From Ignavibacteriales bacterium (GTDB taxonomy: Bacteria > Bacteroidota > Ignavibacteria > UBA10030): a stretch of 64,000 nt of DNA. Of this stretch, positions 10,460 to 56,693 are shown one piece after another; within the stretch, counting starts at the first letter, position 1; every line of letters starts with the position of its first letter. The notes below the pieces were generated by a model. The model saw only the letters and a list, made by a program, of their open reading frames with translations. It did not search any database and was not told the origin of the DNA. A program made the translations under genes and the position numbers. The stretch lies in NCBI GenBank assembly GCA_026390575.1, contig JAPLFR010000008.1, positions 372,001-436,000 on the forward strand. Direction: 5' to 3'.

Positions 10460-10545
10460 ATTTACTCAAGATGATCTCTTCAAAAACAACGAGGTACAGA
10501 GTGAACCATTGTTTCTCAATCTTGATTCATCAAGGAACGACTGAT

Positions 10546-11106
10546 TTAGACATTTTTCAACAGTGCAGACCAACTCAATGGTAATTTGGGACCTTGATAT
10601 ATTTTGAATCCATTATTTTCGGCAAGCTTGATCGTTAATTCAAATTCTTTTTGAGAGACATGAAACAATTTGGGTTCTACAATAAGAAATTGTCCCTTTT
10701 CGTTTAAGATATTTTTCAATTGTTTAAAAAACGAATTTTTATCCGGGACTTCATGAACCATATAAAAGGTTAAAATAAAATCGACTTTTTCTGATATATT
10801 GATTTTATCTTTATCACATTTTACGAGCTTAATCCTTTCTTCCAACTCTGTTCCCTTAATTTTATTGCCAAGTTTTTGCAGCATTCCATCCTGTAGATCA
10901 GCTGAAATTACTTTTCCACTCTTGCCGATCATCTTAGCCATTTCTATAGAGAAAAATCCAGGACCGCATCCAATATCGAGGACGGTCATTCCTTCTTTCA
11001 TGTAGGGAGCAAGTATTTTTCGCGGATTTTGCAGCCATCCTCTTATTTTATTATCGAGTGAATTTGCAAGTTCAACAGGACAAACCCGATTTCTTTCACT
11101 ATCCAT
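10546..11106 (-). CDS. Class I SAM-dependent methyltransferase
   Basis: 186 residues with motif I LDIGCGPGFFS, motif II ISADLQDGML (acidic residue for the ribose) and a post-motif EVPDKNSF. This is the Methyltransf_11/25 type, UbiE-like in layout. The substrate is not predictable. A strong GGAGG sits 4-5 bases before the ATG (11104-11106). The gene is visibly more A+T-rich than the flanking housekeeping genes. It lies at the left edge of the accessory island and 53 bases downstream of a SpoIIAA-like gene. Confidence 0.85.
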   Translation of the reverse strand: MDSERNRVCPVELANSLDNKIRGWLQNPRKILAPYMKEGMTVLDIGCGPGFFSIEMAKMIGKSGKVISADLQDGMLQKLGNKIKGTELEERIKLVKCDKDKINISEKVDFILTFYMVHEVPDKNSFFKQLKNILNEKGQFLIVEPKLFHVSQKEFELTIKLAENNGFKIYQGPKLPLSWSALLKNV

Positions 11107-11130
11107 AGTTCCTCCAATTAAAAATGACTT

Positions 11131-11137
11131 GTTGGAC
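11131..11137 (-). repeat. Integron-core-like heptamer (RYYYAAC on minus strand)
   Basis: On the plus strand this is GTTGGAC inside TGACTTGTTGGACGG. The same context recurs at 13657-13663 (CGACTTGTTAGACCG). It lies 23 bases after the stop of the gene at 11160, where an attC would start in a minus-strand cassette. No full palindrome follows, so at best it is a truncated site. Confidence 0.3.
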
Positions 11138-11159
11138 GGTAAACATCTTATTATTTCAT

Positions 11160-11534
11160 TTATTCTTTCGCTAAAAGCCAGTTATATGCTTCTTCTTCAT
11201 TAGAAAATATTTTTATTTCCATCTGTTGATGCTCAAGGATTGATTGGAACATCCGTGCAATACCATATTGAAGCGAATTACCCGTTAATATTGCAGTTTT
11301 CACTATCTGCGGCAATTGAATAGTACGGAGGTTCTCTGCAAAATCCATAAGTTCATCGAATCCTATCTTAATCCCATGAAGTTCCCTCATGTCTTCTATA
11401 CGATTGATTAAATTCAATTCATTCCTACCTACTATGAGTGAATCTTTTAACACTCCCTGGATATCATTATTGTCTAACGTTCCACTATATGTAACTCTGA
11501 TGAACTTCGTGCTTGCGTCTATAGAATATGACAT
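11160..11534 (-). CDS. SpoIIAA/STAS-like small protein
   Basis: 124 residues, ATG at 11532-11534. The pattern (YSIDASTKFIRVTYSG, then two alternating strand/helix units and a C-terminal EEAYNWL) matches the SpoIIAA-like/STAS fold family, whose members are stand-alone cytosolic proteins with no fixed role. The neighbouring genes are unrelated, which fits a cassette island. Function not assigned. Confidence 0.6.
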   Translation of the reverse strand: MSYSIDASTKFIRVTYSGTLDNNDIQGVLKDSLIVGRNELNLINRIEDMRELHGIKIGFDELMDFAENLRTIQLPQIVKTAILTGNSLQYGIARMFQSILEHQQMEIKIFSNEEEAYNWLLAKE

Positions 11535-11725
11535 CGGAATATTCCTTTCGTTTACTGCTTAACTGATTGGGAAGCGATCGGTTAACATATCCACCACACC
11601 ACGATTGATCGGTTATCACGGTACATATTTTGTTAGTGGCGCAATCACGTTAAAAAGTAATTCAAGTTCTATGTTTTTGCAAATTCCATTTATGTCTTTC
11701 AAGTGAGCTGTTAGAATGCGGCGTT

Positions 11726-12343
11726 TTAATAAAATACATAAATCAAATTTAATTGCAGCTCATCGACAGTTTTGATATCCGCAAACGGCAATTCGATATC
11801 TGTTGCATAATGGCCGCTGGAAAGATTTTTCATTTTGAAAAGGAGTTCCAATTTTATTGGCTGCCACAAAATATGTTCCCGCGAAATCGAGGCGGCAAAA
11901 AAAGGTCCGCTTTTCGTTTCATCTTCAAATGTCATTGTTTTACCTGACGTAATTCCTTTTCGAGTTGCAGTAAATCTGTCGAATGTGAATCCCAGACCGA
12001 ACGTAAGACAATATCCATCATATACTGCTTGAGGTATGTTGATGCTGAACTCATAAGCAGTGAACGACGATGTGCTGTTGATATGTTCTAGACTGTTAGG
12101 CGAAGGAGGCATCATGAAACCATACGTCAAATAACCATCATAGGATCTTTCATGCGTGGCATAAATATATTCGACTTACAGGTTTACCTTCCAGATATGC
12201 TTGCTGAGAGATCCCCCCACACCAATCGGATTTTGTATTTCATAATTATGAGTCCAGATTATCACAGGAGAAATTCCGATCTCCTGTGCATTGATATTCG
12301 TAGAAAGAAATATCGAAAAGAATAAAATAAGTGATTTATTCAT
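11726..12343 (-). pseudogene. Outer-membrane beta-barrel-like protein interrupted by one in-frame TAA
   Basis: An ATG at 12341-12343 opens a signal peptide (MNKSLILFFSIFLSTNINAQ) and a 55-residue segment ending KHIWKVNL. A TAA at 12176-12178 stops it. The same frame then continues with VEYIYATHERSYDG and runs to a normal stop at 11726, with alternating polar/hydrophobic strands and a C-terminal aromatic (YVFY) typical of outer-membrane barrels. The whole reading frame is 205 codons plus the stop. One substitution (CAA, AAA or GAA to TAA) would explain it. It may be a recent pseudogene, a sequencing error or programmed readthrough. Family not identified. Confidence 0.65.
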
Positions 12344-12436
12344 ATCGATTGCGACTCAAGGACTGTAATACCATCAATCACAAAGTTAAAAAATATATCT
12401 TATATTGATCGATTAATTAGACCCACTTTCGATTAT

Positions 12437-13015
12437 TCAGTTGTTGATCCCTTTGATGAGTTGCATACCCCAATGATAGGGCTCAAAAAACCTGCTATTT
12501 CCATGGAAGTGCAGATCGAGACCGCCGATCGAACCAAGAATCGTCTCTTGGTCGGGTCGCAAATGAACAATTGGGCCGCGCGGTGTTTTTATGTCTTTTC
12601 GCCAATGAAGGATAGCTGCTACACCAGATTGTTTGAGAATTCGAGAAGCCTCTTCAAGCAACAGTCTTCGTTCGTTGAAGTGCAGGATATTAAAAAGTAA
12701 TATCATTCCGACGCTCTCTGAGTCTAATCCTGTTCCCATTTCAAGAACATCGCGAAGAGAGAATTGAACGTTGAAAAGACCGGATTGTTGAACATTGTGC
12801 CTCGCCGTCTCAAGCATATTCGGCTCGATGTCAAACGCAATAACTTGAGCATGTGTTTTCTTGGCAACGGGAACAGTGAAAGTACCATAGCCACAACCAA
12901 TCTCGACAATGGGTCCAGTTATATTTTCAAGATCTAACCAATGTACGATATGAGAAATATTAAACAAACTATTCCAATAAATCTCATCCGGCATCCCGCT
13001 GTCAATTACCTTCAT
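12437..13015 (-). CDS. Class I SAM-dependent methyltransferase
   Basis: 192 residues, ATG at 13013-13015. Motif I is VEIGCGYGTFTVP, motif II IAFDIEPNML and motif III/IV LLFNILHF. Hence a Rossmann-fold methyltransferase of unknown substrate, unrelated in detail to the one at 10546. The C-terminus ends in a short EPYHWGMQLIKG segment. It follows the DUF1579-like gene at 13061 by 45 bases and may share its transcript. Confidence 0.85.
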   Translation of the reverse strand: MKVIDSGMPDEIYWNSLFNISHIVHWLDLENITGPIVEIGCGYGTFTVPVAKKTHAQVIAFDIEPNMLETARHNVQQSGLFNVQFSLRDVLEMGTGLDSESVGMILLFNILHFNERRLLLEEASRILKQSGVAAILHWRKDIKTPRGPIVHLRPDQETILGSIGGLDLHFHGNSRFFEPYHWGMQLIKGINN

Positions 13016-13060
13016 TGTTTCACCAATATACGCTGAACGTTGGTAAGCTTGACCTTATCA

Positions 13061-13576
13061 CTATTTCCTGTTGAGCTTCACACGAGCAAAGGGCTGAAGT
13101 CTCCCATTCTCTTCCCCATCCATCAGCCAACGCCAAGTGTCAGTATCTCTGTTATACACGAACGTTGTGTGGAAAATGCTGCCGTCACTGCCTTTAAACA
13201 AGAACGCAATTTCATCGCCGTTCCGCTTTCCGTGGCCAATGGCCTGATCCGAGAGGCCGCCTCCGCCGGTTACGTCGAGCCAAAGACATGCATACTGGCT
13301 CGATGGTTTGTCCCAGCCAATGAAGACGATCGCTTCATAAGCTGCTTCGCCGTCGGGATTCTTTTCGTGCGATATTTCGTGAAGCCGCACATACTGATGG
13401 CCCAGGACCCACTCTGTAACAATATCATGTGTCGTCTCTTTTCCAGCAATCGTGCCTTGAAGGATCCATTTTCCAATCATGTGATCAAGTAAGGAATCCT
13501 GAAATATTGGTTGTTGAGCCGAAACAGTGCAAAATATCAAAATAACAAATAAAGAAATTTTTAAGGTTAGTTTCAT
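13061..13576 (-). CDS. Secreted DUF1579-like protein
   Basis: About 171 residues from the ATG at 13574-13576, chosen because AAGGA lies 7 bases upstream and a signal peptide starts there (MKLTLKISLFVILIF, cleavage near VSAQQ). The mature part has HMIGKWILQGTIAG, EWVLGHQYVRLHE and WRWLMDGEENG, the lipocalin-like pattern of DUF1579/heme-binding-like domains that begin with a GxW. Likely periplasmic. No enzyme motif seen. It sits in the accessory island. Confidence 0.65.
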   Translation of the reverse strand: MKLTLKISLFVILIFCTVSAQQPIFQDSLLDHMIGKWILQGTIAGKETTHDIVTEWVLGHQYVRLHEISHEKNPDGEAAYEAIVFIGWDKPSSQYACLWLDVTGGGGLSDQAIGHGKRNGDEIAFLFKGSDGSIFHTTFVYNRDTDTWRWLMDGEENGRLQPFARVKLNRK

Positions 13577-13656
13577 CAAATGTTCCTTCAAATAAATGGC
13601 ACATAGCAGCTGAAATTGAACTTACAGTTCCGATTTATTTTATCTGAGAACGACTT

Positions 13657-13663
13657 GTTAGAC
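13657..13663 (-). repeat. Integron-core-like heptamer GTCTAAC (minus strand)
   Basis: On the minus strand, GTCTAAC fits RYYYAAC and lies 43 bases downstream of the stop of the 89-residue gene, where R'' of an attC would be. The expected GTTRRRY partner before the next gene is not clear (TGTAAGT is the nearest). It shares context with 11131-11137. Confidence 0.35.
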
Positions 13664-13706
13664 CGCCGCTATACTTATAATGAATATTGCTGAATAAAAC
13701 ACCCCA

Positions 13707-13976
13707 TCACTTCGTTTTATTTTGTAGCGAATCTTTTTCTTTCATAAGCAAGGGCTGGTCATTTTTCATAATTTCATGTTTAAGCAACTTTAACTCATGG
13801 CTCTCAATCTTCTTTGTCTGTTCATTGTGTTTGTGAATCTGCTTCTGTGGAACTTTTAATTTAAGATGGGTAGTGTCAGCTGGAGATTCTTTGATCGAGC
13901 TGTGTTGTGCAGAAATACACTCCGAAGCACAGAGAATAAAATCAACGCATAATAATATCGCTAATACTTTTTTCAT
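13707..13976 (-). CDS. Small secreted Lys/His-rich protein, unknown
   Basis: 89 residues. A strong AGGAGG lies upstream of the ATG at 13974-13976. The signal peptide MKKVLAILLCVDFILC is followed by a probable cleavage at ISAQH. The mature part is short, hydrophilic and rich in Lys, His, Glu and Gln, with no domain that I recognise. Likely periplasmic. It occupies its own cassette-like unit: a GTCTAAT-type heptamer lies 22 bases upstream of the start (13998-14004) and GTCTAAC lies downstream. Confidence 0.6.
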   Translation of the reverse strand: MKKVLAILLCVDFILCASECISAQHSSIKESPADTTHLKLKVPQKQIHKHNEQTKKIESHELKLLKHEIMKNDQPLLMKEKDSLQNKTK

Positions 13977-14087
13977 GTTTGATCCTCCTATGTGATTGTC
14001 TAATTGTGCGGGCTGAAACTATCTCTTTTCTTCGTATCGCGGAACGAATGGTTATTCGGTTTTACGTGCGAGTTTTATAATTCTTTT

Positions 14088-14310
14088 TTAATGTGTGGTG
14101 AAAAGTATATTTATTCCTAATGCAATAAATAAAGTACCACATGCTTTATTGAGTACAAAAGCTATTTTTTATCTTTTCTAAGAATTTTTGTCATAGAGGA
14201 TGAAAATATTGCAACCATTAAGCACCATACTGAACCAGTAAAAATGAAAGTGAAACCCAAGAATAAAAATAATTTTGAGTACCAAACATATTCTATCCTG
14301 AAACATAGTG
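14088..14310 (-). pseudogene. LysE/RhtB exporter C-terminal remnant with frameshift
   Basis: Translated on the minus strand, about 14310-14160 gives LFLFLGFTFIFTGS then VWCLMVAIFSS and KILRKDKK. After a one-base shift in an A-run it continues KIAFVLNKACGTLFIALG to a TAA at 14088-14090. This is the last third of a LysE/RhtB amino-acid exporter; the GLGxxL end and GxxWCL helix are typical. The upstream two thirds are missing. An intact LysE homologue lies at 14819. The rest of this 416-base gap holds nothing else that I recognise. Confidence 0.6.
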
Positions 14311-14392
14311 AGCACTTTGGGCGAATTCTCCGTGTTTTTTTACGGTGATTACCTGGCTACGAAACGCCAAATATTTTTTCTGGCTAACCTAC

Positions 14393-14773
14393 TTATTCTA
14401 CCAACGGTTTTCGAAATTCTATAAGTTCAATAGGTCCACCATTATCAATAAGCATAGCGACTCTTACTCCGTCTGAAGGTGAACTAATTTCACCTAACAA
14501 AGTTTGGCCCACGATTGCGGCATCAAGATCGTCGACTTCGAATGCGATGTGTGGTACTGTTCTGATAAGTTCAGATATCTGACACTCTGGCTCGAATCGC
14601 ATCCACTCAACACCATAAGGACTGGTATCAAAGCCAGACACATATATTTTTAGGTGTGGTATATAACGCTCATTTGGACGAGGAGTCGAAGTTGGAATTC
14701 CCATGTGATGATACCGCCAACCCTCTTTGGCAATTGCAGATGGTGGCTCGTGATCTTGACGTTTTTGTTGCAT
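14393..14773 (-). CDS. VOC (glyoxalase/dioxygenase) superfamily protein
   Basis: 126 residues, ATG at 14771-14773. Features of one VOC module: GWRYHHMGIPT near the N-terminus (metal His), HIAFEVDDLDAAI in the middle (second His) and PIELIEF at the end (metal Glu). Hence probably a metal-dependent enzyme or binding protein of unknown substrate. The intact LysE gene ends 45 bases upstream (in the minus direction), with no attC between, so the two may form one cassette. Confidence 0.8.
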   Translation of the reverse strand: MQQKRQDHEPPSAIAKEGWRYHHMGIPTSTPRPNERYIPHLKIYVSGFDTSPYGVEWMRFEPECQISELIRTVPHIAFEVDDLDAAIVGQTLLGEISSPSDGVRVAMLIDNGGPIELIEFRKPLVE

Positions 14774-14818
14774 ATTGTTTCCTACAAATTGGTTTATCGG
14801 TCATATAATGAATGGCGT

Positions 14819-15439
14819 CTATGTGGCCGATGATCTGAAAATAATTATTAACATCTGATATACACCCATGAGTGCAAGTATTACTGACGAAATTAAAATT
14901 AGCGCATGCTTTCCCTTTATTGATAAAAACCGTGAAGTTCCAAAAAGAATAATGGTACTTGCCAGGGTGGATACCATTGTTATATAGAATGCGAAAACAA
15001 GTACTACAGCATGTAATGGACTTTTATTCCATGCTGATAAAACGGCAGGACCGAGTACTAAACTCCAGCCGAGATATGGATTAGGATTGAGAATATTTAC
15101 TGTCGCTGCTTGAATGAGAGTACGTGGTGCTGAATCTTTGATATTGTCTTGCGGTTCTGTCTTTTTTTTCCATTGACGATAACTTGCCCAAGCGAAATAG
15201 AGAAGAAGAATGCCGCCTGCACATTGAAGCACTCCACGCATTGAAGCAGGAATATTATTGAGCAGTAACAGTACGAGCAAAGCAATCGGCCCGTCACTGA
15301 GCAGTGGTGAAAATGAAGCTGGAAGCGTTCGTTTCCAACCTTTCCGAGCAACGCTGGAAAAAAGAAATGCCTGTAAGGGCCCCGGTTGTACGGCTGCAGC
15401 AAATGCAAATCCACAACCTATAAAAATCGATTCTAACAT
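14819..15439 (-). CDS. LysE/RhtB family amino-acid exporter
   Basis: About 206 residues with six hydrophobic segments, ATG at 15437-15439. The signature FAAAVQPGPLQAFL matches the family's GxxxxPGPxxxxV near the first helix. NILNPNPYLGWSLVLGP matches the NPKxxLF segment of helix 4. An inner-membrane exporter of amino acids or small metabolites by proton exchange in known relatives. The coding start is 27 bases downstream of the attC end GTTAGGC at 15467-15473, as expected for the first gene of a cassette. Confidence 0.85.
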   Translation of the reverse strand: MLESIFIGCGFAFAAAVQPGPLQAFLFSSVARKGWKRTLPASFSPLLSDGPIALLVLLLLNNIPASMRGVLQCAGGILLLYFAWASYRQWKKKTEPQDNIKDSAPRTLIQAATVNILNPNPYLGWSLVLGPAVLSAWNKSPLHAVVLVFAFYITMVSTLASTIILFGTSRFLSIKGKHALILISSVILALMGVYQMLIIIFRSSAT

Positions 15440-15466
15440 TTCAGTTTTCTTTGTTTTCCTTAAGCG

Positions 15467-15756
15467 GCCTAACAATTCATCACAAAGATGCTATGCTCGC
15501 AACTTTTGCACATGAACCGCATGAGCCATAAGGACATACCGTAACTTTCTATGCTGTACGACGCCTCTGCGTGCCTTGCCGATGTATCATAGACACTTCC
15601 TTGTGCACTTCATCTCAGCGGACAAGCCGGCATGCAGGCGCATTCATCTTTAGTATCTTTGTATAATACAGTATTGCGCTCTGCGCACCGTCATTCTCAC
15701 GCCGCCTGCCGCGATTCATGTATCGAGACAAGCCGAGCTTGAATTGCTGGCTAAGT
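15467..15756 (-). repeat. attC-like recombination site (long)
   Basis: On the minus strand it starts ACTTAGC (15750-15756, imperfect R''), continues CAGCAATTCAAGCTCGGC and ends GAATTGTTAGGC, with a perfect GTTRRRY at 15467-15473. The plus-strand end GCCTAACAATTC equals the classic start of class 1 integron attC sites. The right-hand CAGCAATTCAAGCT matches CAGCAACTCAAGCT of the site at 22659-22816. At about 290 bases it is long and may be two sites or one with an insert. It lies between the T9SS cargo stop and the LysE start. Confidence 0.5.
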
Positions 15757-15765
15757 GCAATTGCC

Positions 15766-18495
15766 TTATCGCAACAAAATAAGTTTCTTGGTCTCTGTAA
15801 ATGAACCTGCTTGGAGATGATAGAAGTATACTCCACTTGGCATGTTTGCCGCATTCCATTGGTATGAGTGATTTCCTGCTGGCAAATCTTCGAAAATAGT
15901 TGTTGCCACTTCTCTTCCAAGTACGTCAAACATCTTTAACGACACAAATGATTTTGATGCGAGACTAAATGATATCGTTGTGCTCGGGTTGAAGGGATTG
16001 GGATAATTTTGCTCAAGGGAAAATGTGAAAATAGATGCCTTCTGATTTGAAACATCCGTTACTTTAAAGTTGAGTTGATTACTTAAAGCACTCATATTCC
16101 CATGGATGTCTTCCGCGCGAATAACATAAAATAGTTCCGAACTGGAAGAAATTTCAGTATCACAATAACTCGTATCGGTTGTATAGGCGTACCGAGAAAG
16201 AGTATCTGCATTGAGTATTGGCATTTTACTTCGATAGATTGCATAGCCACTCAAATCGTTCTCTGTATTTCTATTCCAAGAAAGAAATATCGAAGTTGGT
16301 GTCTGGTGACCCGAAAGGTACTGAGGTGCAACGGGAGGAATATTATCGACTGAATTGGCACTATCAATATTGGAATCGTAAAATATATTAGGATCTGATG
16401 TTTGGGCGGATATCATAAAATAGTGCCTCCCATTTGTGAAAGCCGTTGAATCATAAAGAGTCTTTGCAGTAAATGAATAACCTTGCGCACAATGGGACGG
16501 TTGATTCGCTATCCACTCCCAATAAATCATATTCGAGGGAGTTGAAGAGGAATTCATAATCCTTAAGGCGTTATAAGAGAGTGGTTGAGATACTGCTGAT
16601 TTATTTAATAGAACTTTATTCATTGAAAGAGGTATCGCACGCCATATACTGTAATATGGAAGAAGATTGACATTCGTGTCAAGAATAGAAGAATTCCATT
16701 TTAATACTACGTTGCCTCCTTGGTCATTCGGAACATCACGACAGGATACGAGCAACGGCTTTTTAGGAAACTCATTGCACCATATCCCGCTATTATACAC
16801 TCCTGCGTAAAGATCACCTTTAAGAATCGTAAGTGATTGGACATTGAGCGATTGGTTATTCATGATACTCCAGGTGCTTCCGCCATTTGTTGAGAAAGCC
16901 ACTCCCAGAGGTGTTCCTGAATACATTGATGAGTTATTTACAAGAAAAGTACCTTGATTGAATGCAGGAACTCCTTTATTGTATCTCCAGGTATTTCCAA
17001 AATCGTTTGAGGAGAAAACCGAATCATTCAACGATGCATATATCGTATTGTCTTTGGAACCAAGAGATCCAAAATTAGTACTGGTAAAAGAAACATAAAT
17101 AATATCAGGTTTAGAAATACTCCAGCTTGTTCCGCCATTTGATGAAACAAAAACGCCGCTCGTTGTGCCTGCAAAGATATAATTCTCGTCAAGTCTCTCA
17201 AGCGCAAATACCCGAGTGTCTGTTAATCCAGTATTGACGGATGTAAATGTTGTCCCGTTATCTGATGAATAAAAAATACCATTATCTGTTCCGGCCATGA
17301 TCGTAAAGCCACTGACCGATATTGTGTATATTGTTGCAGATAAAACTGAACTCCATGAATTCCCATTATCAGAAGACCGAACAAGTGCAGTTGATGTACC
17401 GGCAAATATTGTGGATGAATTGTTTGCCAAAATGTTTACTGGCCCTATGGGGGCAAGCAATGACCACGATAAGCCACGATCAGATGACTTAAATACTCCT
17501 CCAGCCCAACTATAGTTGGTTCCGGCATATAAATTGTTGTTAAATGATATCACCGAACTGGGATTGGTTAATCGCATCCCATCTGATGAAAAGTTCCAGG
17601 ATAATCCATTATCCGACGAGAGATATGTTCCGCCATATGTCCCTGCAAGAACTGTTTGATTATGTGTATAAACGGAAAATACATTGTTCCCCATAAATGT
17701 AAATGTTGATTTTGTCCATGTCGAACCGCTATCGATGGATGTATGTACACCAGATTGAGAACCTGCGTAAAGATAGTTTCCACTCGAAGCTATCGAATTA
17801 ACTAGATCATTGTCAATATCAATGATCTTTTTAGTCCACGTTAAGCCTGAATCTGGAGAACTGAACAAACCTCCTCCCGTCCCTGCAAAAATATATCTAC
17901 CGTAAACAAGAAATGACGTAATACTTGTATACGTCAGTCCTGAGTTGCTTATTGTCCAACTATCACCGCCATCGGAACTAATAAATACTCCACCGGCAGT
18001 GCCTGCAAATATTTTTACACCTTGTAGTGTTACAGCCTTGACTATCCCTTCACTCATACCTGAATTAGATAACGCCCACGTATTTCCATTATCTGTTGAT
18101 CGATAAAAGCCAAGATGACTGCCGGCGTATATATTTGAACCCGATTGAGCTAATGCATAAAATGCTGTTATTTCAATAATTCTTTTCCAGTTAGAACCAT
18201 TGTCATAGGAAACATAAAGACCGTGTTGTCCACCAGCATACAGAGTCTTACCTGAAGAGAGCAATGAATATATTTGATCTAAAGGACTATGAGGACAAAA
18301 TGCCCAGCTTTTTCCATTGTCGATGGAGCTATAAATTCCATAATACGTTCCTGCAAAAATATTTGAACCACAGAGAGTATAGCACTGGATAGTTCCACCT
18401 GCTGGACCATTTGTCTGGGTCCATTGAGCCGCTGATTGACTCATAACAATGAAATAAGAAATCAATATCAGCAAAACGCGGAAAATAGTTTTCAT
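15766..18495 (-). CDS. Large secreted BNR/sortilin-type beta-propeller protein with FN3 and T9SS sorting domain
   Basis: About 909 residues. The ATG at 18493-18495 has AGGAG at eight bases; an ATG six bases earlier is also possible. Signal peptide KTIFRVLLILISYFIV. About 13 repeats of 40-45 residues with the pattern IFAGTxxGVFxSxDNGxSW build one or two propellers of the sortilin/photosynthesis-stability (BNR) type. Near residue 740 is a fibronectin III-like unit (SIFLSWNRNTENDLSGYAIYRS). The last 80 residues are a type A type IX sorting domain (LEQNYPNPFNPSTTI ... SGVYFYHLQAG ... KKLILLR). So it is exported through T9SS and anchored or released at the surface. It is flanked by attC-like sites and very large for a cassette gene. 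Confidence 0.85.
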   Translation of the reverse strand: MKTIFRVLLILISYFIVMSQSAAQWTQTNGPAGGTIQCYTLCGSNIFAGTYYGIYSSIDNGKSWAFCPHSPLDQIYSLLSSGKTLYAGGQHGLYVSYDNGSNWKRIIEITAFYALAQSGSNIYAGSHLGFYRSTDNGNTWALSNSGMSEGIVKAVTLQGVKIFAGTAGGVFISSDGGDSWTISNSGLTYTSITSFLVYGRYIFAGTGGGLFSSPDSGLTWTKKIIDIDNDLVNSIASSGNYLYAGSQSGVHTSIDSGSTWTKSTFTFMGNNVFSVYTHNQTVLAGTYGGTYLSSDNGLSWNFSSDGMRLTNPSSVISFNNNLYAGTNYSWAGGVFKSSDRGLSWSLLAPIGPVNILANNSSTIFAGTSTALVRSSDNGNSWSSVLSATIYTISVSGFTIMAGTDNGIFYSSDNGTTFTSVNTGLTDTRVFALERLDENYIFAGTTSGVFVSSNGGTSWSISKPDIIYVSFTSTNFGSLGSKDNTIYASLNDSVFSSNDFGNTWRYNKGVPAFNQGTFLVNNSSMYSGTPLGVAFSTNGGSTWSIMNNQSLNVQSLTILKGDLYAGVYNSGIWCNEFPKKPLLVSCRDVPNDQGGNVVLKWNSSILDTNVNLLPYYSIWRAIPLSMNKVLLNKSAVSQPLSYNALRIMNSSSTPSNMIYWEWIANQPSHCAQGYSFTAKTLYDSTAFTNGRHYFMISAQTSDPNIFYDSNIDSANSVDNIPPVAPQYLSGHQTPTSIFLSWNRNTENDLSGYAIYRSKMPILNADTLSRYAYTTDTSYCDTEISSSSELFYVIRAEDIHGNMSALSNQLNFKVTDVSNQKASIFTFSLEQNYPNPFNPSTTISFSLASKSFVSLKMFDVLGREVATTIFEDLPAGNHSYQWNAANMPSGVYFYHLQAGSFTETKKLILLR

Positions 18496-18537
18496 TTTCA
18501 TTTCTCCTTTTATGAATACATGCTAAATGTTAATCAC

Positions 18538-18836
18538 GCCCTCACGGATGGCGTCTCCACCAAAAAGACGGTGGACAAGTAAGTCCCGATTCGATCTTCG
18601 ATTGAATCGAGGATCCCGCACATCGTGACTCCCGCACTGCATATTTTCACACTGTACTAAATCTGTACTAATAGTAAATTTATATCTTTTTAATTTGTAT
18701 TGCTAAATAAGAAATTGTTTCGTGTTTCGTGCGATACATTCTCACGCCTCCGGCAATCAGCGAGTGCCAAATGCGCTGTCGTTTGCAGCCCTATCTTCGA
18801 TATCCTGCTCATATTGCGGGGAGTTCCAGATTGGCC
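18538..18836 (-). repeat. attC-like recombination site (degenerate, long)
   Basis: On the minus strand it begins near GGTTGGCCAATCTGGAACTC (18826-18840). It ends GACGCCATCCGTGAGGGC, close to GCCGCCATCCGTTAGGC of the site at 22659. Both also share a CGCACTG ... TGTACTAAA stretch on the plus strand (18632-18663 against 22686-22713). It sits between the DinB stop and the start of the T9SS cargo gene. The core heptamers are imperfect, so it may be inactive. Inside is a hairpin TCGATTCAATCGAAGATCGA. Confidence 0.42.
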
Positions 18837-18878
18837 AACCACTTCAATTCTTCAAGCGGAATCGTCTCAGCGAAAGCT

Positions 18879-19367
18879 TCAAAGAGATGTCGATTCCTTC
18901 GCTTGGTGCTGTAAGATCCGTTTGAGCAGCAACATCTGTCCAGCATGGTACGCGTGGTGCTGAGTCAACCCATGCAAAAGATGTGCGCAGTCGTAGTCCC
19001 GATTCGGCACCGGAGCATTTAGATCGACATCGCTCAAAGTTTTGAGGGTTGCGATCAATCCCGATTGTGAACGGCGGAGATTCTCGAATGCAGCAGCCCA
19101 AGCATTTTCGCTCATATCGCGGACCGGTGGCCAATCAGCTTCACCGTCAAGCTCCGAAACTTTCCCCAGCACTCGCAAATGAACGGCGTTCACCCACGCG
19201 GTGAGATGGTACACAAGTTCCCAAATTGAATGCCCGCCGGGTACCGGATGCACAGCGGCCTCCTTGGCGGTTATGCCTTCGAGTATCTCGCGGATCGACG
19301 CTCCCTGCCATGAATCACCTTCCAGTGAGCGGTGGAGTTGGTCGACAATCCCTTCAATTCCTCTCAT
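18879..19367 (-). CDS. DinB/YfiT family four-helix metal-binding protein
   Basis: About 162 residues from the ATG at 19365-19367 (MRGIEGIVDQLHRSL). DinB-like fold: GGHSIWELVYHLTAW gives the first metal His in helix 2, and LTQHHAYHAGQMLLLKR the HxxxH in the last helix. Members are thiol-S-transferases (bacillithiol, mycothiol) or unassigned. An upstream TTG at 19442 would add an atypical stretch and is not preferred. It is more G+C-rich than its neighbours. It belongs to a cassette block with the GNAT and membrane genes. Confidence 0.82.
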   Translation of the reverse strand: MRGIEGIVDQLHRSLEGDSWQGASIREILEGITAKEAAVHPVPGGHSIWELVYHLTAWVNAVHLRVLGKVSELDGEADWPPVRDMSENAWAAAFENLRRSQSGLIATLKTLSDVDLNAPVPNRDYDCAHLLHGLTQHHAYHAGQMLLLKRILQHQAKESTSL

Positions 19368-19515
19368 GTCTCGATTTCTCTTCCGATACTCACGATGCTC
19401 GAAAACCGAATAGCCACTTTCTGCACCAGCGAAAAGATCCAACTCTTCATTGCATGCTGGTGATTGATTTATCGGCCAGTATCTTTTACGGGCCGCGGAT
19501 CAGGAAACATTACTA

Positions 19516-19950
19516 CTAATTTCGTAATACCTTAATTTTATCAGCGAATGACTTTAAAGTTGATATTGTATATTGTTCCTCGCATTTTTTCCATTCTTCG
19601 TTTCCTGCGAATGCTACAACTCCAAACAATGGTATAACAGTACAAATAATTAACAATCCTATTGTTACCTTTATGGAAAGAATTAGAATTAATAGAGTTG
19701 ATGTAATTCCACCTCGTAAAAGGACATATTCGTAGAGAATAAATCGCGTTTTCCCCTTCTTACGTATCTTCTCCCAATTTGATACACGTCTTTTACGCGC
19801 CATAATTTCTGAATAAAGAATCAATGCAATTAAAATAAATCCAATTATATTAAATCTCAGGGTAGAATAATTTAATCCCTGTTTCCAATTTAGTATTGAA
19901 AAGAAAACAATTGCAACAATAACTTGGATGATGAACGACGCTCTTTTCAT
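19516..19950 (-). CDS. Small integral membrane protein, unknown
   Basis: 144 residues, ATG at 19948-19950. Four hydrophobic segments (about residues 6-22, 32-50, 78-94, 96-115) are split by a basic loop (ARKRRVSNWEKIRKKGKTR) that should be cytoplasmic. The C-terminal 30 residues are hydrophilic. No family recognised. A+T-rich like the GNAT gene 24 bases upstream, with which it is probably cotranscribed. Confidence 0.6.
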   Translation of the reverse strand: MKRASFIIQVIVAIVFFSILNWKQGLNYSTLRFNIIGFILIALILYSEIMARKRRVSNWEKIRKKGKTRFILYEYVLLRGGITSTLLILILSIKVTIGLLIICTVIPLFGVVAFAGNEEWKKCEEQYTISTLKSFADKIKVLRN

Positions 19951-19973
19951 ATAACATGCCTAAAAGTAATATT

Positions 19974-20468
19974 TTACAGTATCAGTTCCCAATAGCCAAC
20001 ATCGACCCATTGACCTAATTTATAACCTACTTCTTTTAAATGAGCAACCTTTTGAAATCCAAAATTTTCACACAATGCAATACTTGCTTGATTTGGTAAT
20101 GCGATTCCGCATATCACACTATGAATTGATCTTTCTCTCAGAACCTTCAATAACTCCTCTTTCAAGATCGTACCTATTCCTTTCCTGACATAATCAGAAT
20201 CGATATATGTACCAGTTTCAACTGAATAGCGATATGCCGATCTTTCCTTCCATTTACTCGCATAGGTGTAGCCAATCACTCTTCCGTTTTCTTCATACAC
20301 CAACCATGGATAATTCTGTGTGATATTTTTTATACGGGACACCATTTCGTCTTCTTCTAACGGCGTCTCCTCAAAAGTAATTCTGGTACCTGCAATATAT
20401 TTATTGTAGATACGACATATATCACCAGTATCAGATTCTTTCACTTGTCTTATCATAATTTTCCTCAT
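19974..20468 (-). CDS. GNAT N-acetyltransferase, phosphinothricin acetyltransferase-like
   Basis: 164 residues. GNAT fold with acetyl-CoA loop VRKGIGTILKEELL (Q/RxxGxG/A), the EETP strand pair typical of PAT/MnaT, YRYSVETGTYID, and the tail EVGYKLGQWVDVGYWEL. Relatives acetylate phosphinothricin or methionine sulfone; the true substrate is unknown. ATG at 20466-20468 or the internal Met at 20456. Acetyltransferases are common cassette cargo. The attC-like site at 20513 ends about 45 bases upstream. Confidence 0.87.
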   Translation of the reverse strand: MRKIMIRQVKESDTGDICRIYNKYIAGTRITFEETPLEEDEMVSRIKNITQNYPWLVYEENGRVIGYTYASKWKERSAYRYSVETGTYIDSDYVRKGIGTILKEELLKVLRERSIHSVICGIALPNQASIALCENFGFQKVAHLKEVGYKLGQWVDVGYWELIL

Positions 20469-20512
20469 AACATAATTTATACATGAGTTTGTGCTCTATT
20501 GGATCTCCGCTC

Positions 20513-20586
20513 CGCCAAAGAATTGTTCATCAGACTGCAATGGACTTATCAAGCGGACAAGCCGGCAGGAGAGTTGCTGGTGAGAC
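20513..20586 (-). repeat. attC-like recombination site (short)
   Basis: On the minus strand GTCTCAC (20580-20586; RYYYAAC with one mismatch) is followed by CAGCAACTC. The right end reads TTTGGCGGAGCG, matching GTTGGCGGAGCG of the site at 21051. It lies 10 bases after the SnoaL stop and before the GNAT start, where an attC is expected. The total of 74 bases is near the common attC size. The arms include CCTGCCGGCTTGTCCGCTTG, also found inside the site at 15467. Confidence 0.5.
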
Positions 20587-20595
20587 GACTCGTTA

Positions 20596-21000
20596 TTATT
20601 TACGATTCTCTCTTACTTCTTCTAACTCCATCATTGTTCGCCACACTGCAACCCACTTATCAGAAATGCATTGAAACACCCAAAGGTCTCTACCCTTTGA
20701 TCGTTCCTGATACTTCGCTCGTTCATATAGCATCTCGAATTGGAAACTCACAACAGCACAATCTCCAATTACGTTTATTTGTTCATTGCTCTCCCTATAT
20801 TCAAGAACTCGCGCATTTGTACAGAATTCGACAAAACTTGCGAGAAGTGCATCGCGTCCTGTTACCTCGCCTGAAAATCCAGGAAAATTCATGACAATAT
20901 CGGAATGTAAGTATTGCGACATTTCAAGAGGAGCATTGGATCGCCATGCTTGGTTTATTGCAGAAATCACTTTATGCGCTTTGAGTTTTGAGTCTTCCAT
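20596..21000 (-). CDS. SnoaL-like / NTF2-fold protein
   Basis: 134 residues. GGAGG lies a few bases before the ATG at 20998-21000. The pattern (helix AINQAWRSN, DIVMNFPGFSGEVTGRDALLASFVEF, then strands INVIGDCAVVSFQFEM and DLWVFQCISDKWVAVWRTM) is that of SnoaL/DUF4440 NTF2-like domains, some of which are isomerases or immunity proteins. Function not predictable. Single-gene cassette between attC-like sites at 20513 and 21051. Confidence 0.72.
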   Translation of the reverse strand: MEDSKLKAHKVISAINQAWRSNAPLEMSQYLHSDIVMNFPGFSGEVTGRDALLASFVEFCTNARVLEYRESNEQINVIGDCAVVSFQFEMLYERAKYQERSKGRDLWVFQCISDKWVAVWRTMMELEEVRENRK

Positions 21001-21050
21001 TTTACCTCCATCGTGATATGTTCTTTACACTACTAAACAGATGATCGCTC

Positions 21051-21128
21051 CGCCAACCTGCCCGCCATGCGTTCCCGCCCGAACGACTGTTCAGTCGTGC
21101 GGGCTGGCGGGAGAGCCGCTGGTTAGGT
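21051..21128 (-). repeat. attC-like recombination site
   Basis: On the minus strand the site runs from ACCTAAC (21122-21128, a perfect RYYYAAC) through CAGCGGCTCTCCCGCC to GGCAGGTTGGCG (R' with one mismatch). The inside is an almost complete palindrome, with a central perfect stem CCGCACGACTG/CAGTCGTTCGG. Its 78 bases fold into one hairpin, as attC bottom strands do. It is located between the 68-residue gene and the SnoaL gene. Confidence 0.6.
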
Positions 21129-21215
21129 TGCACATTAAAACAATATTCTTTGATGTATGTTAGAAGATGGAAATTGTATGAGAAATGTATTAAGCGTAAC
21201 GGGTGATGAGTAGGT

Positions 21216-21422
21216 TCACTCCTTGATAAGATTGTCTTTCTTAACACCATCTTCGCTTGGCAGCATATTTCGTGTTTCAGCTGATTTCGTCTTCAGTCTG
21301 GGTCCTTCTTGCATAAGATTGGGTAGTGTAACAAAATTGCTTTGTTCTATCTGAAAAGTTGAAAACACAACATTATTGTTGCTAAAACCGATTTGGGACT
21401 CAAGTTTGAAAGAGATTGACAT
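21216..21422 (-). CDS. Small 68-residue protein paired with ClpP-like protease
   Basis: ATG at 21420-21422, three bases after the protease stop. AAGGAG overlaps the end of the protease gene at good spacing, so translation is well supported despite the size. Soluble, no signal peptide and no domain recognised. The N-terminal half is Asn/Ser/Phe-rich (FSNNNVVFSTFQIEQSNF), resembling a beta-strand-rich accessory or substrate peptide. It is likely a functional partner of the upstream protease. Confidence 0.6.
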   Translation of the reverse strand: MSISFKLESQIGFSNNNVVFSTFQIEQSNFVTLPNLMQEGPRLKTKSAETRNMLPSEDGVKKDNLIKE

Positions 21423-21425
21423 AGC

Positions 21426-22574
21426 TTAAACTCCTTTTAAATTAGTGCGCCATCCTTCAAAGAGCACATCCATATAAAATTGTGTTGGCAATCCTGCAAT
21501 GTATAGCGGGAGACCTGGAACTATTGGCTGAATATTATTTAATCCCGTCTGAACATTAGGATTAACTACTCCTGGATAAGTCTGAGTAATCATTGAAATA
21601 CGCAAATCCGATTCGTATGTCCATGATTTTTGAGTTGTCTCAACATATCCACGAATATATGACTTCTGCAATTGTTGTTGCTGTCCTAAATCACTTAACA
21701 AATTTTGTGGTGTTCTTAGTTCCAAAGCGTCACTGTACTTCTGAAAAATATTCCAAATGAGATCGTGCTCAACTTTTTCTGGAAATTTTACTCCTTTTCC
21801 AAAAATCTTTTGTGCATCACGTCTGTTAACCGCGTGTGTATGTGAGTATAATTTCTCAGTCAACGTCGATACAATGGTCGATATTTTTTTCTTATCCTCG
21901 TTCTTGAGATGAAGTCTAAGTAGTTTTTCTGCTATCATGCGAATTTGCGTGTGTACTCTTTGCACATGACCAAGTGAAAGCGGATGAATCTGCGAAGTTA
22001 ATTGTTTGAAAACCTCCAATATATGGTCAGGTGAAGTAAGCTTGACTTTTTCATTTTCCTTTGCAAAACTGAAATATGAGGTAACGTCTTCTACACTGAT
22101 ACCTTTTCTCTTATCCTTGACAAGTTCATCCACAGGATTAAATGGGTTACCTGTGGTGGGATCGACCGAAGTTAGCTCTGCAGCTTCACACATTACTATT
22201 TCATGGGCTCCCATTGCTATGAGTGTACCAGCGCTATGCGCACGAAAAGGTACAAGTACACAAAACTTGGATTTTGCAAACTCTCTGATCAGAGATACGA
22301 TAGGATAAACGACATCAACTGCACCACCTCTTGTGTATAAAAACAAGTCAATATTTTCTGTTGGTCCAATAGTCTGTAGTGCCTCATAAATTACGGGCAC
22401 TACATTTGGCTCAACACTATGAGCAAGCTCCAAACCAGGTCCTCCCGTTGGCCGATCTCCAGTTATGTATGTAAGAATACGAGAAGAACGTTTTTGTTCC
22501 AATTCTTGTATAGCAGCCTTACGTACATCAAATGGCGTCATTGCCTGCTGACCGGGATTTTGTGTAGTTGTCAT
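21426..22574 (-). CDS. ClpP/SppA-class serine protease, SDH-protease (PF01972) type
   Basis: 382 residues. The first 180 form a crotonase/ClpP fold: LFLYTRGGAVDVVYPI (oxyanion loop) and AHSAGTLIAMGA with the predicted nucleophile Ser in SAG. This is the serine dehydrogenase proteinase family, like SppA without a membrane anchor. The middle is helical and charged. The last 90 residues (LRTPQNLLSDLGQQQQ ... FYMDVLFEGWR) match nothing I know. The cytoplasmic location is inferred from the lack of a signal. ATG at 22572-22574. It precedes the 68-residue gene and lies in a cassette. Confidence 0.78.
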   Translation of the reverse strand: MTTTQNPGQQAMTPFDVRKAAIQELEQKRSSRILTYITGDRPTGGPGLELAHSVEPNVVPVIYEALQTIGPTENIDLFLYTRGGAVDVVYPIVSLIREFAKSKFCVLVPFRAHSAGTLIAMGAHEIVMCEAAELTSVDPTTGNPFNPVDELVKDKRKGISVEDVTSYFSFAKENEKVKLTSPDHILEVFKQLTSQIHPLSLGHVQRVHTQIRMIAEKLLRLHLKNEDKKKISTIVSTLTEKLYSHTHAVNRRDAQKIFGKGVKFPEKVEHDLIWNIFQKYSDALELRTPQNLLSDLGQQQQLQKSYIRGYVETTQKSWTYESDLRISMITQTYPGVVNPNVQTGLNNIQPIVPGLPLYIAGLPTQFYMDVLFEGWRTNLKGV

Positions 22575-22658
22575 GGCATTAAAACTTTACCAAAAAATAG
22601 GGACAATGTCAATGTCCCCCAATAACCATCAATATTAAGCATTTTTATGCTATGTGCC

Positions 22659-22816
22659 GCCTAACGGATGGCGGCTAAGCTGCCGCACTGATAACTTTCA
22701 TAATGTACTAAACGAAACAAGTTCATGCTAAAAATTTTATTATTAAGAACCGAAACCTATGCAAGCCATGCTTAACGTACCACGCTCATCCGGTCAGCTT
22801 GAGTTGCTGGTTGGGC
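22659..22816 (-). repeat. attC site, best-formed copy
   Basis: On the minus strand it starts GCCCAAC (22810-22816, RYYYAAC) and ends GTTAGGC (22659-22665, GTTRRRY). The inner arms CAACTCAAGCTGACCG and CGGCAGCTTAGCCGCC pair as L''/L' around AAGCTG/CAGCTT. Total 158 bases. It begins 10 bases after the stop of the gene at 22827. Its ends match the sites at 15467 and 18538. All hallmarks of an integron attC (orientation, ends, dyad, position) are present. Confidence 0.7.
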
Positions 22817-22826
22817 AACATACCAT

Positions 22827-23438
22827 CTATTGAATTGCAGAAATAATTGTTCCCAAAACAACTATCAAAAATCCAGTTATTTGTCCTCTAATTCCGCCAA
22901 CAGCCACATCTGTTATGAGTGTCTTTAACTCAGAACTCGTGGTATTTATGGAAGCTATTTTTTCTTGGAAGTCCACTTTTTGTTCATTCATTTTTTTGTG
23001 AAAATCGTTTATGCAATTATCTAGCGCATTCTCCAGATAGCTTAATTGTCTTTCTAGGAATGCAACCTTATCGGACAATTCGGTATAATTGTGACTAACT
23101 GTAGCATTAGCTTGCATACCTGCCGATGTCATCTCAACTGTCCCAGTTATTGCTACAATGTTCTTTTTGGACCAGAAAGGAAATGATTTAAATAATTCGA
23201 TTGTTTCTCTCTTAATTGCTTGTACAATTGTCTGACCCTTGAATCCTCGAAGGTTCGTATCTATCGACCAGACAAGTTGGAAGCCACCAATTATTTGAAG
23301 GGCTACACCATACCAATTGTTGAAGGACGATTCTTGCGCAGCTAAATAGGATCGCAGAATAAAATACATTATCAATACTGACGGTAAAGGTAGTAATGGC
23401 AATATACGTTTTCGAAACCAATCAAAGTATTTTTTCAT
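22827..23438 (-). CDS. Membrane protein with coiled coil, unknown
   Basis: 203 residues. Hydrophobic segments at about 13-33 and 40-58, a coiled-coil stretch at about 115-165 (NYTELSDKVAFLERQLSYLENAL, shortened here) and a C-terminal membrane helix (ITGFLIVVLGTIISAI). It is probably an inner-membrane protein with the coil on one side. No family recognised. First cassette gene of the array in reading direction, flanked by GTTAGAC (23458) upstream and the attC at 22659 downstream. Confidence 0.6.
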   Translation of the reverse strand: MKKYFDWFRKRILPLLPLPSVLIMYFILRSYLAAQESSFNNWYGVALQIIGGFQLVWSIDTNLRGFKGQTIVQAIKRETIELFKSFPFWSKKNIVAITGTVEMTSAGMQANATVSHNYTELSDKVAFLERQLSYLENALDNCINDFHKKMNEQKVDFQEKIASINTTSSELKTLITDVAVGGIRGQITGFLIVVLGTIISAIQ

Positions 23439-23457
23439 TTTCTTCCCGTGGTATGTT

Positions 23458-23464
23458 GTCTAAC
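23458..23464 (-). repeat. Core-site heptamer GTTAGAC at upstream edge of cassette array
   Basis: On the minus strand GTTAGAC fits GTTRRRY and lies 19 bases before the ATG of the first cassette gene. It would be the recombination point joining the array to an attI or an earlier attC. The sequence to its right shows no clear attI or complementary arm. Confidence 0.4.
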
Positions 23465-23776
23465 ATCTAATTAGATAGATTTTGTCTATCTTTTGTTCTT
23501 ATAAGCGTTCAACAAAGACTCTAACCTTTCGGTCTATTAACATCATCGTATGTTTGGAAAAACACTTAATTAGGTAAATCTGCACACGCTGCTCCCGGTG
23601 TGCACATTATATCGGAGAACTGGTTTTAATCTACAAACGTGAGGTGAGAAATGCAAACTGGAACATTGAGGTGCTGAAACAATCCCTCTCGCGTAACCTT
23701 CCCTTTATAACCTTCCGAAGGTTCTCAAGGTTTATGTATAGGAAACCTTCGGAAGGTTGCTTCTCACGGAAGGCTT
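23465..23776. other. Non-coding gap between cassette array and mqnC
   Basis: No convincing gene. It contains an A+T-rich stretch, a perfect stem TGCACAC/GTGTGCA at about 23582-23605 without a T-run on either strand, and the AACCTTCCGAAGGTT palindrome pair listed separately. It may hold the old insertion edge and the 3' end of the mqn transcript. Confidence 0.5.
23709..23758. repeat. Paired 15-base palindromes AACCTTCCGAAGGTT / AACCTTCGGAAGGTT
   Basis: Two 15-base palindromes at 23709-23723 and 23744-23758, 20 bases apart. They are self-complementary and nearly identical to each other, so the unit can form a cruciform or a long hairpin. A related repeat with AACCTTGTCAAAG arms lies at 63791-63824. 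It lies 19 bases beyond the mqnC stop and could act as a transcript end. Likely a dispersed hairpin repeat of this genome. Confidence 0.55.
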
Positions 23777-24880
23777 CTATGCGGCTTCTTCTATTTTATC
23801 CACCTTCAGGATCTCATAAAGTGTGGTTCGTTGCGCGGGAATAAATCCAGCATCCCTAATCATGTTCTTGCACTCTTCAACGCTGGTCGTATTCACAAAC
23901 TTTGCGGCAGCGTGAACATTTTCTTCCAACAATATACCGCCAAAATCATCGCCGCCAAAGTGGAGTGCAATCTGTCCGATCTTCTTCCCTTCTGAAAACC
24001 ATGATGCCTGAATGTGCTGAAAATTATCCAGATAGATTCGCGAAAAGGCAATCATCTGTAAGTAACGTGTAGGTGTGGCATAATGCGGAATGATTTTTTC
24101 CAACGGCGTATTGCCCGGCTTAAACGACCATGGTACGAATGCAGTGAATCCATCTGTCTCTTCCTGCAGTTGGCGTATAGCTTCAAGGTGTTCAACAATA
24201 TCCTCTTCCGTTTCAAGGTGACCGTACATCATTGTTGCTGTCGTCTTGTAGCCTATCCGATGGGCGATGCGCATTACATTCAGCCAGTCGGCAGATGTGC
24301 CTTTACGGCTGCTTATTTTTTTCTTCACACGATCGGAGAGAATTTCTGCACCTCCGCCGGGAAGAGAGCGCAATCCTTTTTCCCATAATTTTTCAAGCAC
24401 TTGCTCTATGGACAAGCCGGAGACGTGCGACATTCCGATAATTTCAGACGTTGAAAAGAAATGCGGATAAATCTCCGGAACTTCCTTCACTGTACGTTCA
24501 ACAAGTTCAAGATAATAATCGAATGGAATCGTTGGATCCACGCCTCCCTGCAAAAGTACTGTCGTAATTCCGCCTGCTGCCGCTTCCTTAAATTTCTGTA
24601 TCAATTGATCGATCGATAATCTATATGCCCCTTCTTCGCCGGGATGGCGGTAGAATGCGCAGAAAATACAATCGATATCACAAACATTTGAATAGTTCGG
24701 ATTCGTATCCAAAAGGTATGTCACCCACTGGTTTGGATTTTTGCGAAACCGAATCTCACTTGCCAGGTCGCCTAAATCCAGCAGCTCTGCATTCCGCAGA
24801 AGGAACAATCCTTCTTCAGAAGAGATGCGATTGCCGTCCCGGACTTTGTGATATACCTGTTCTAACGTCATTGATACCAT
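23777..24880 (-). CDS. mqnC: Cyclic dehypoxanthinyl futalosine synthase
   Basis: 367 residues. Radical SAM enzyme of the futalosine menaquinone route; closes the ring of dehypoxanthinyl futalosine. The CxxxCxxC cluster motif is C67, C71 and C74 (CDIDCIFC). GGVDPTIPFDYY, LPGGGAEIL, YGHLETEEDI and FGGDDFGGILLEENV identify MqnC rather than MqnE. ATG at 24878-24880, two bases after the stop of the TIR-like gene, so both are cotranscribed. MqnB and MqnD, which act around this step, are not in the window. Confidence 0.94.
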   Translation of the reverse strand: MVSMTLEQVYHKVRDGNRISSEEGLFLLRNAELLDLGDLASEIRFRKNPNQWVTYLLDTNPNYSNVCDIDCIFCAFYRHPGEEGAYRLSIDQLIQKFKEAAAGGITTVLLQGGVDPTIPFDYYLELVERTVKEVPEIYPHFFSTSEIIGMSHVSGLSIEQVLEKLWEKGLRSLPGGGAEILSDRVKKKISSRKGTSADWLNVMRIAHRIGYKTTATMMYGHLETEEDIVEHLEAIRQLQEETDGFTAFVPWSFKPGNTPLEKIIPHYATPTRYLQMIAFSRIYLDNFQHIQASWFSEGKKIGQIALHFGGDDFGGILLEENVHAAAKFVNTTSVEECKNMIRDAGFIPAQRTTLYEILKVDKIEEAA

Positions 24881-56327: not shown

Positions 56328-56431
56328 TTTTCTTCTTTGTTCCTAATTTTAGTCTATGAGTTCTTCGACTCATATTAAAATATTATGAGTGTATTGTATC
56401 CCTTTTCAAAAAAGAATGCAAATGAATTGAG

Positions 56432-56544
56432 GTTGACCAAAAAGTATCGAAAACATGGTAGTCGAAGACTTTAGTCTTCGTTTATTATCTGAAAACGAAA
56501 CCTGATGGTTTCGACTACCGTTAATTTTACACTTTTTGGTCAGC
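56432..56544. repeat. Palindromic element with two internal hairpins
   Basis: Outer arms TTGACCAAAAAGT (56433-56445) and ACTTTTTGGTCAG (56531-56543). Next GGTAGTCGAA pairs with TTCGACTACC. Inside are two perfect small stems, CGAAGAC-TTTA-GTCTTCG and CGAAACC-TGAT-GGTTTCG. No ORF. It looks like a MITE-like or cruciform repeat. The rest of the 366-base gap (56328-56693) shows nothing that I recognise. Confidence 0.7.
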
Positions 56545-56693
56545 CACATCACTGTGAAAAACATTTCATCTTAATGAATCAAGATTCGGGGTATTTAAAC
56601 CGAATTGAAATTTTGTACTCAATAGGGTAGATTGGATTAAGCATTCCAAAGGTTTCCAGCGATTAACCAAAGTGAATCTTCGGAAGTTCGTAC

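Follow-up and report, generated by a model that had tools for sequence, protein, structure and literature searches.

This work concerns a gene for a large propeller protein in a 64,000-nucleotide stretch of DNA, hereafter the window, which corresponds to bases 372001-436000 of contig C8 in the 3.82-Mb genome (16 contigs) of an Ignavibacteriales bacterium. We consider it likely, at a probability of about 0.78, that this gene is an old integron cassette, a relic bounded by sites of the host's own attC type and probably fixed in the chromosome by now. Integron integrases insert cassettes and recombine attC sites through the folded bottom strand (PMC5371416, PMC8946536).

The propeller gene and its flanking spacers

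The gene is a single open reading frame on the minus strand, of 911 aa (909 aa if counted from residue 3, also a Met), and lies alone in the interval between two spacers of 290 bp (15476-15765) and 377 bp (18502-18878). Its product matches Sortilin-Vps10 (PF15902; 7.2e-13, 48.6 bits against a cut-off of 33, in three stretches) and Por_Secre_tail (PF18962; 2.7e-10, 40.8 bits against 27) in Pfam, and the type IX secretion system (T9SS) type A sorting domain in NCBIfam (TIGR04183; 40.9 bits against 23). The first-pass annotation, which had placed a single large T9SS propeller gene in cassette position, was right on this point. The NCBIfam glycosylhydrolase model F510_1955 scored just under its cut-off (160.8 of 175 bits) and serves as a label only. 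Matches to PDB sequences, a xyloglucan hydrolase and a BNR protein, were weak, the N-terminus resembles a signal peptide by eye, and a single-sequence structure model had a mean predicted local distance difference test score (pLDDT) of 30.7, too low for use. The protein would be exported by Sec and then cross the outer membrane by the type IX route via its C-terminal tail, and the displayed propeller is predicted to bind a ligand.

The attC ancestry of the spacers was assessed by comparing a library of 84 attC sites from the same genome (62 model-type, 17 from arrays of swollen sites, 5 degenerate) with the window by blastn. Clear matches were confined to the minus strand, at 15593-15737 (E 1.7e-14) and 18675-18768 (6e-19), that is, in the two propeller spacers. 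Further minus-strand matches lie at 20552-20569 (0.003), 21031-21078 (0.004) and 22660-22812 (1.7e-60), and one more match below 0.01 was found on the plus strand, in the GuaA coding sequence (7495-7518, E 0.006). The best E values in the controls were 0.09 for the reversed window and 0.037 for 37 kb of array-free sequence.

Because the five degenerate library sites had been found via the window spacers themselves, we prefer a locus test, in which the window spacers were compared with 29 loci (329 kb) of the same genome and of sister species. The yardstick was an attC site within 200 bp, as recognized by R1, a model of the genome's own attC sites that was also used genome-wide and, unfiltered, on window positions 10400-24000. 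For the 3' spacer of the propeller gene, 11 of 15 matches lay within this distance of a same-strand attC, and for the 5' spacer 8 of 12, against a strand-specific background of 0.129; an opposite-strand attC was near none of the 27. Two other spacers behaved in the same way, with four of five matches (20469-20595) and two of three (21001-21425) at a same-strand attC and none at one on the opposite strand. Among 13 control spacers of the window, ten had no match and the remaining three had matches of which none was close to an attC.

Some of these matches lie within attC sites themselves. The best for the 5' spacer fall inside R1-recognized sites of the sister genome G001 (L050:3052-3121, 81% over 70 nt, E 3.9e-13; L054:3104-3173, 79% over 70 nt, E 2e-10), and the left arm of the 3' spacer resembles the attC of a propeller cassette on C8 (86% over 29 nt, E 0.002). 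In a permissive alignment test the 3' spacer reached a z of 6.2 in favor of attC. The 3' relic ends at 15467 with its R' core, has a substitution within the AAC of R'', and carries a diverged copy of insert (ii), one of the palindromic inserts described below. For the 5' relic, the outer limit of 18836 was placed by eye at the lost R'', where the arm matrix gives no recognition. The two positions coincide with the start and end given in the first-pass annotation. Intact R''/R' cores with pairing arms are seen in neither flank. A classification of the flanks as 'not attC', taken from R1 negatives, was overturned by comparison with swollen attC sites and sister species. Judging by these alignments, we conclude that both flanks are decayed descendants of attC sites. 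The attC-like spacers proposed by the first-pass annotation thus hold up as to their origin and not as to their integrity.

Integron arrays, swollen attC sites and type IX cargo in the genome

The genome encodes an integron integrase at C7:21893-22834 (442.3 bits against a cut-off of 265), the only one above the family cut-off; within the order, 22 of 98 genomes have such an integrase. The array facing it (C7:1-20050) consists mostly of single minus-strand genes with 24 attC pairs. When 21 of these sites were aligned, the anatomy of attC stood out clearly, and compensatory changes were seen: 96.9% of cells are paired, covariation is 0.152 compared with 0.036 after shuffling, and 20 cells are changed on both sides compared with 5.3. 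Genome-wide, R1 recognized 81 attC sites (77 at E <= 0.001), a lower bound in that 150 of 1237 first-look candidates were scored; regular-expression searches had skipped some sites and were superseded by a later pair search. The sites cluster on C7, C1, C15, C16, C8, C6 and C9. As the arrays on C7, C1, C15 and C16 extend to contig ends, some of them may be assembly-broken pieces of one array.

Integrase fragments far below the cut-off were seen near the arrays of C15 (5084-5314, with a stop; locus L005) and C8 (65686-65883; locus L007). Both are in the divergent layout expected of intI, and these two arrays were therefore probably once complete integrons. A 621-aa UvrD-type helicase gene is also found as a cassette of the integrase-linked array, between two good attC sites (L009:18008-19873). 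The first-pass annotation had noted that cassettes usually carry one gene below about 1 kb. With cassettes of ~2.1 and ~2.4 kb, attC included, in the integrase-linked array, a size above 1 kb is no obstacle here.

Propellers with type IX tails are among the large cassettes. In the integrase-linked array a 709-aa protein (C7:14257-16386; Sortilin-Vps10 2.8e-24, Por_Secre_tail 4.2e-7) is encoded between attC sites of 147.6 and 150.9 bits, and on C8 a 765-aa propeller (83869-86166, equal to L160:1869-4166; T9SS tail 38.8 bits against a cut-off of 23) lies between sites of 89.1 and 86.3 bits. A 314-aa protein with a tail above cut-off has attC on both sides (C1:244-1188), and a 248-aa protein (C7:4074-4820) has a borderline tail. 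In the genus, a 693-aa propeller of G003 forms a two-sided single-gene cassette whose 3' attC is weak (34.7 bits). Propellers of 697 aa in G001 and 700 aa in G004 have 3' attC sites of 23.9 and 94.4 bits, and on their 5' side another gene lies in the same interval or next to it. Two YCF48/BNR-type proteins of G004 (420 and 430 aa) and an FG-GAP protein of G001 (854 aa) are likewise encoded between attC sites. This genus comparison covered three of the four best propeller matches, the fourth being in a 2193-aa frame on C116 of G003, and since the best matches are only 37-39% identical to the window propeller they are paralogs rather than orthologs. Instead of one fixed position without attC in relatives, which the first-pass annotation had considered, we thus find paralogs at other loci, three of the four best with a 3' attC.

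Por_Secre_tail is the most frequent Pfam family of cassette reading frames. It was found in 3 of 55 in the genome's own arrays (E <= 0.001), with the 765-aa C8 gene coming on top of this count, and in 8 of 80 in relatives, a figure biased upwards by loci partly picked for a tail near attC. Intervals between attC sites shorter than 150 bp or longer than 4 kb were dropped, among them one of 5.1 kb on C8 that holds two more large T9SS genes. Out of 99 tails listed in the genome, four have an R1-recognized attC (E <= 0.001) within 300 bp on the 3' side and on the same strand. What we claim is the recurrence of T9SS cargo in integron cassettes and not its enrichment. Such surface cargo, as the first-pass annotation had supposed, is indeed carried in cassettes, and it appears that surface proteins are shuffled by integrons in these bacteria.

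Some arrays of this genome hold swollen attC sites, which have the usual outer cores and contain palindromic inserts at three places: L'', the terminal structure and L'. Three near-identical palindromic inserts recur at fixed places of attC (L016:11500-18000 on C1, L018:3800-19800 on C8, L022:5660-6000 on C9). Nearly everywhere they follow the attC orientation, and they occur mostly in distal positions or in arrays without a whole integrase: 11 of 12 sites of the C8 array bear an insert and 1 of 24 on C7, and on C1 such sites are found only from 11.5 kb outwards. By eye, the C7 sites 7704 and 9541 contain a different palindrome. The R''-R' span is 195-377 nt in the 15 measurable sites of swollen arrays and 155-234 nt, mostly ~158, on C7. 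At a typical length of 158 nt and a maximum of 377 nt, the attC sites here differ from the 57-141 bp given in PMC5371416, where length did not correlate with predicted folding. Since long terminal structures are reported to lower the recombination of attC sites on replicating DNA by as much as four logs (PMC8946536), swelling could freeze cassettes. We infer that swelling tracks age and lowers excision, and that decay of the sites follows, as at the window locus. A broader model, which we regard as tentative and rather doubtful, is that integrons of the genus rotate type IX-exported propellers while orientation-locked palindromic inserts swell attC (to 377 nt), distally and in arrays that lost the integrase, until recombination stops and cassettes are retired, with the window propeller as an end stage.

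The island around the gene and the competing explanations

The propeller gene belongs to an island of minus-strand genes (Table 1) for methyltransferases, a glyoxalase-like protein, LysE, the propeller, DinB, GNAT, DUF4440, an SDH protease, a 203-aa protein and others. One attC site of the window passes R1 (22653-22821) and four others are remnants; everything else in 10400-24000 scored 9.9 bits or less, the value of a weak match at 21026-21100, 3' of the SDH-protease gene. The 203-aa protein had no match in the loci compared.

Table 1. Features of the island in the window
Feature	Position	Strand	Remarks
Island of minus-strand genes	10546..23438	-	attC traces only within 15467-22821
Decayed attC 3' of propeller gene	15467..15756	-	R' GTTAGGC intact at downstream end; R'' ACTTAGC, one mismatch
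BNR/Asp-box (Sortilin/Vps10-type) propeller protein, 911 aa	15766..18501	-	T9SS type A tail at ~residues 833-908
Decayed attC 5' of propeller gene, 3' of DinB gene	18539..18836	-	R' mutated to GTGAGGG; R'' unrecognizable
DinB_2 family gene (Pfam), putative cassette upstream of propeller	18879..19442	-	
Remnant of attC insert (ii), 18 nt and exact, 3' of DUF4440 gene	20552..20569	-	E 0.002-0.003; 4/5 matches at same-strand attC
attC remnant 3' of SDH-protease gene	21026..21128	-	Left arm ACCTAACCAGCGGCTC in 21105-21128
Intact-looking native attC	22653..22821	-	150 bits; 3' of 203-aa gene (22827-23438)

The blocks on either side of the island, GuaA-YebC-DUF6600 on the left and MqnC on the right, are partly or wholly conserved in relatives. 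Nine loci from G001-G005 and G009 were compared with the 15 island genes, and the island genes were not found there, the propeller alone being matched, by its sorting tail only; six of these loci reach ~6 to 15 kb into the island side and three, including both of G005, stop at or near a contig end. R1 detected a single attC across all nine loci, and it lies in G003. We envisage that cassettes of the host's attC type were placed on the minus strand between the two blocks by the C7-encoded integrase of the host, or by a related one since lost, and that they formed a secondary array or one that broke off from a main array. Every inserted gene would have brought its own attC at the 3' end. Palindromic inserts and mutations would later have enlarged and altered these sites, leaving that at 22653 as the only one that still looks whole.

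Several results weigh against this reading. The loci of the locus test had been chosen as rich in attC, two of them because the spacers matched them, and their matches are not independent. With R1 unfiltered, both propeller flanks scored 3.0 bits or less on the strand of the gene and were not detected as intact attC; on the opposite strand, the scores were 4.4 bits and, for an A+T-rich match to the middle of the model, 9.2 bits. The arm weight matrices alone were not significant for the flanks, as the reversed window scored higher. The permissive alignment left the 5' spacer ambiguous, its z being 2.5 on the right strand and 3.9 on the wrong strand. Three of the control spacers also reached z 3.7-3.8. 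The flanks folded as single strands no better than shuffled sequences (z -0.69 and -1.53). One swollen site reached z -4.05; the one native attC that was folded did no better than shuffled sequences either (z -0.42), and folding is therefore not useful as an attC test. Two spacers 3' of island genes, 19443-19515 (inside the supposed array) and 14774-14818 (downstream of LysE), show no attC trace. Finally, no relative showed the empty site on a single stretch, as the two blocks never occurred together in one of the stretches compared.

The island, wholly or in part, might have arrived with a phage, conjugative element or transposon that carried cassette debris, which is compatible with a cassette origin of the propeller gene. 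The spacers of the genes from 10546 to ~15440 are without attC traces, and that part may therefore have another origin. Pfam assigned none of the 15 island genes scanned to phages, transposases or conjugation, five of them being without an informative match, and the attC traces belong to the type native to the host. We regard this route as rather unlikely.

An explanation that would deprive the gene of its cassette status is that the flanks are palindromic intergenic repeats, dispersed through the genome, that also invaded attC sites, and that the propeller is encoded by a chromosomal gene like any other. Insert (ii) does occur outside any attC at least once (C16:226856), and at C9:101765 without clear attC arms. 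Many propeller and tail genes of the genome, paralogs of the window gene among them, lie outside attC arrays, and the failure of R1 to detect the flanks would also fit. However, the same-strand matches cover parts of attC beyond insert (ii), namely the left arm and the 70-nt stretch shared with G001. Both spacers lie 3' of genes in attC orientation, near a true attC and other same-strand remnants, and the 709-aa and 765-aa paralogs sit in recognizable cassettes. We therefore consider this explanation unlikely.

It is highly improbable that the flanks are divergent yet working attC sites, for this or another integrase, and the propeller gene a mobile 2.7-kb cassette: the R' core of the 3' site is intact, and in some arrays of the genome it is common to find swollen attC sites whose arms are intact, but the 5' site reads GTGAGGG instead of GTTRRRY and has lost its R'', the AAC of R'' is substituted in the 3' site, and the C7 integrase is the only one over the family cut-off. 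With no intact attC at either flank, one R' mutated and no integron integrase in the window, present mobility is unlikely, and the moving cassette envisaged by the first-pass annotation is better described as a former one.

Some observations concern the surroundings. In 22653-23776, which holds the intact attC and the 203-aa gene, the segment upstream of the gene resembles C9:17439-17654 (71% over 221 nt) and sequences on C15 and on C39 of G004. Within 56328-56693, a 133-nt stretch recurs at C7:34502-34634 with 95% identity and has an inverted repeat at 56428-56548; it is a dispersed palindromic element with no attC nearby in the loci compared. A CAP12/Pycsar TIR-like gene beside MqnC (24883-25734) is kept there in G002, G003 and G005 (59-71% identity) and thus belongs to the backbone rather than to a variable island. 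The MqnC-like gene is open in the window genome and has several in-frame stops on C70 of G003 (L158:9450-10530); at E <= 1e-60 it had no match in G001 and G004.

Relation to known systems and biological meaning

Sedentary chromosomal integrons of the Vibrio type share with the host integron the intI gene, an array of single genes in one orientation, and homogeneous attC sites with covarying arms. In contrast to them, T9SS-sorted propeller genes of 2.1-2.3 kb are found here as cassettes. Other proteins with the type A sorting domain (TIGR04183/PF18962) likewise carry it at the C-terminus above curated cut-offs; here, some of the genes sit in integron cassettes.

Clusters of attC sites lacking an integrase (CALIN) have been proposed to be degraded integrons (PMC9024848). 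The window resembles them in its attC-type sites and cassette-like genes with no integrase nearby, yet decay is so advanced that one site only is still recognized by the model. Cassette products directed to export have been described before, signal peptides being present in 10-30% (PMC8618304) or 11-14% (PMC10963911) of integron cassettes. Here, in contrast, the cargo consists of large BNR/Vps10 or FG-GAP propellers with a named route to the outer membrane, the type IX tail. PMC10013915 reports no integrons in its genome, and in the open-licence literature none of the papers listed, screened by title and start of abstract, describes type IX cargo carried in cassettes of integrons.

The lineage is rich in type IX sorting tails, and cassettes of more than 2 kb occur more than once in it. 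Swollen or decayed attC sites, overlooked by a model of intact sites, can hide former cassettes, and their palindromic swelling suggests a testable way in which a mobile cassette could turn into a permanent gene. If our interpretation is correct, integrons would gain a role at the cell surface, outside drug resistance, in the swapping of whole outer-membrane-sorted proteins.

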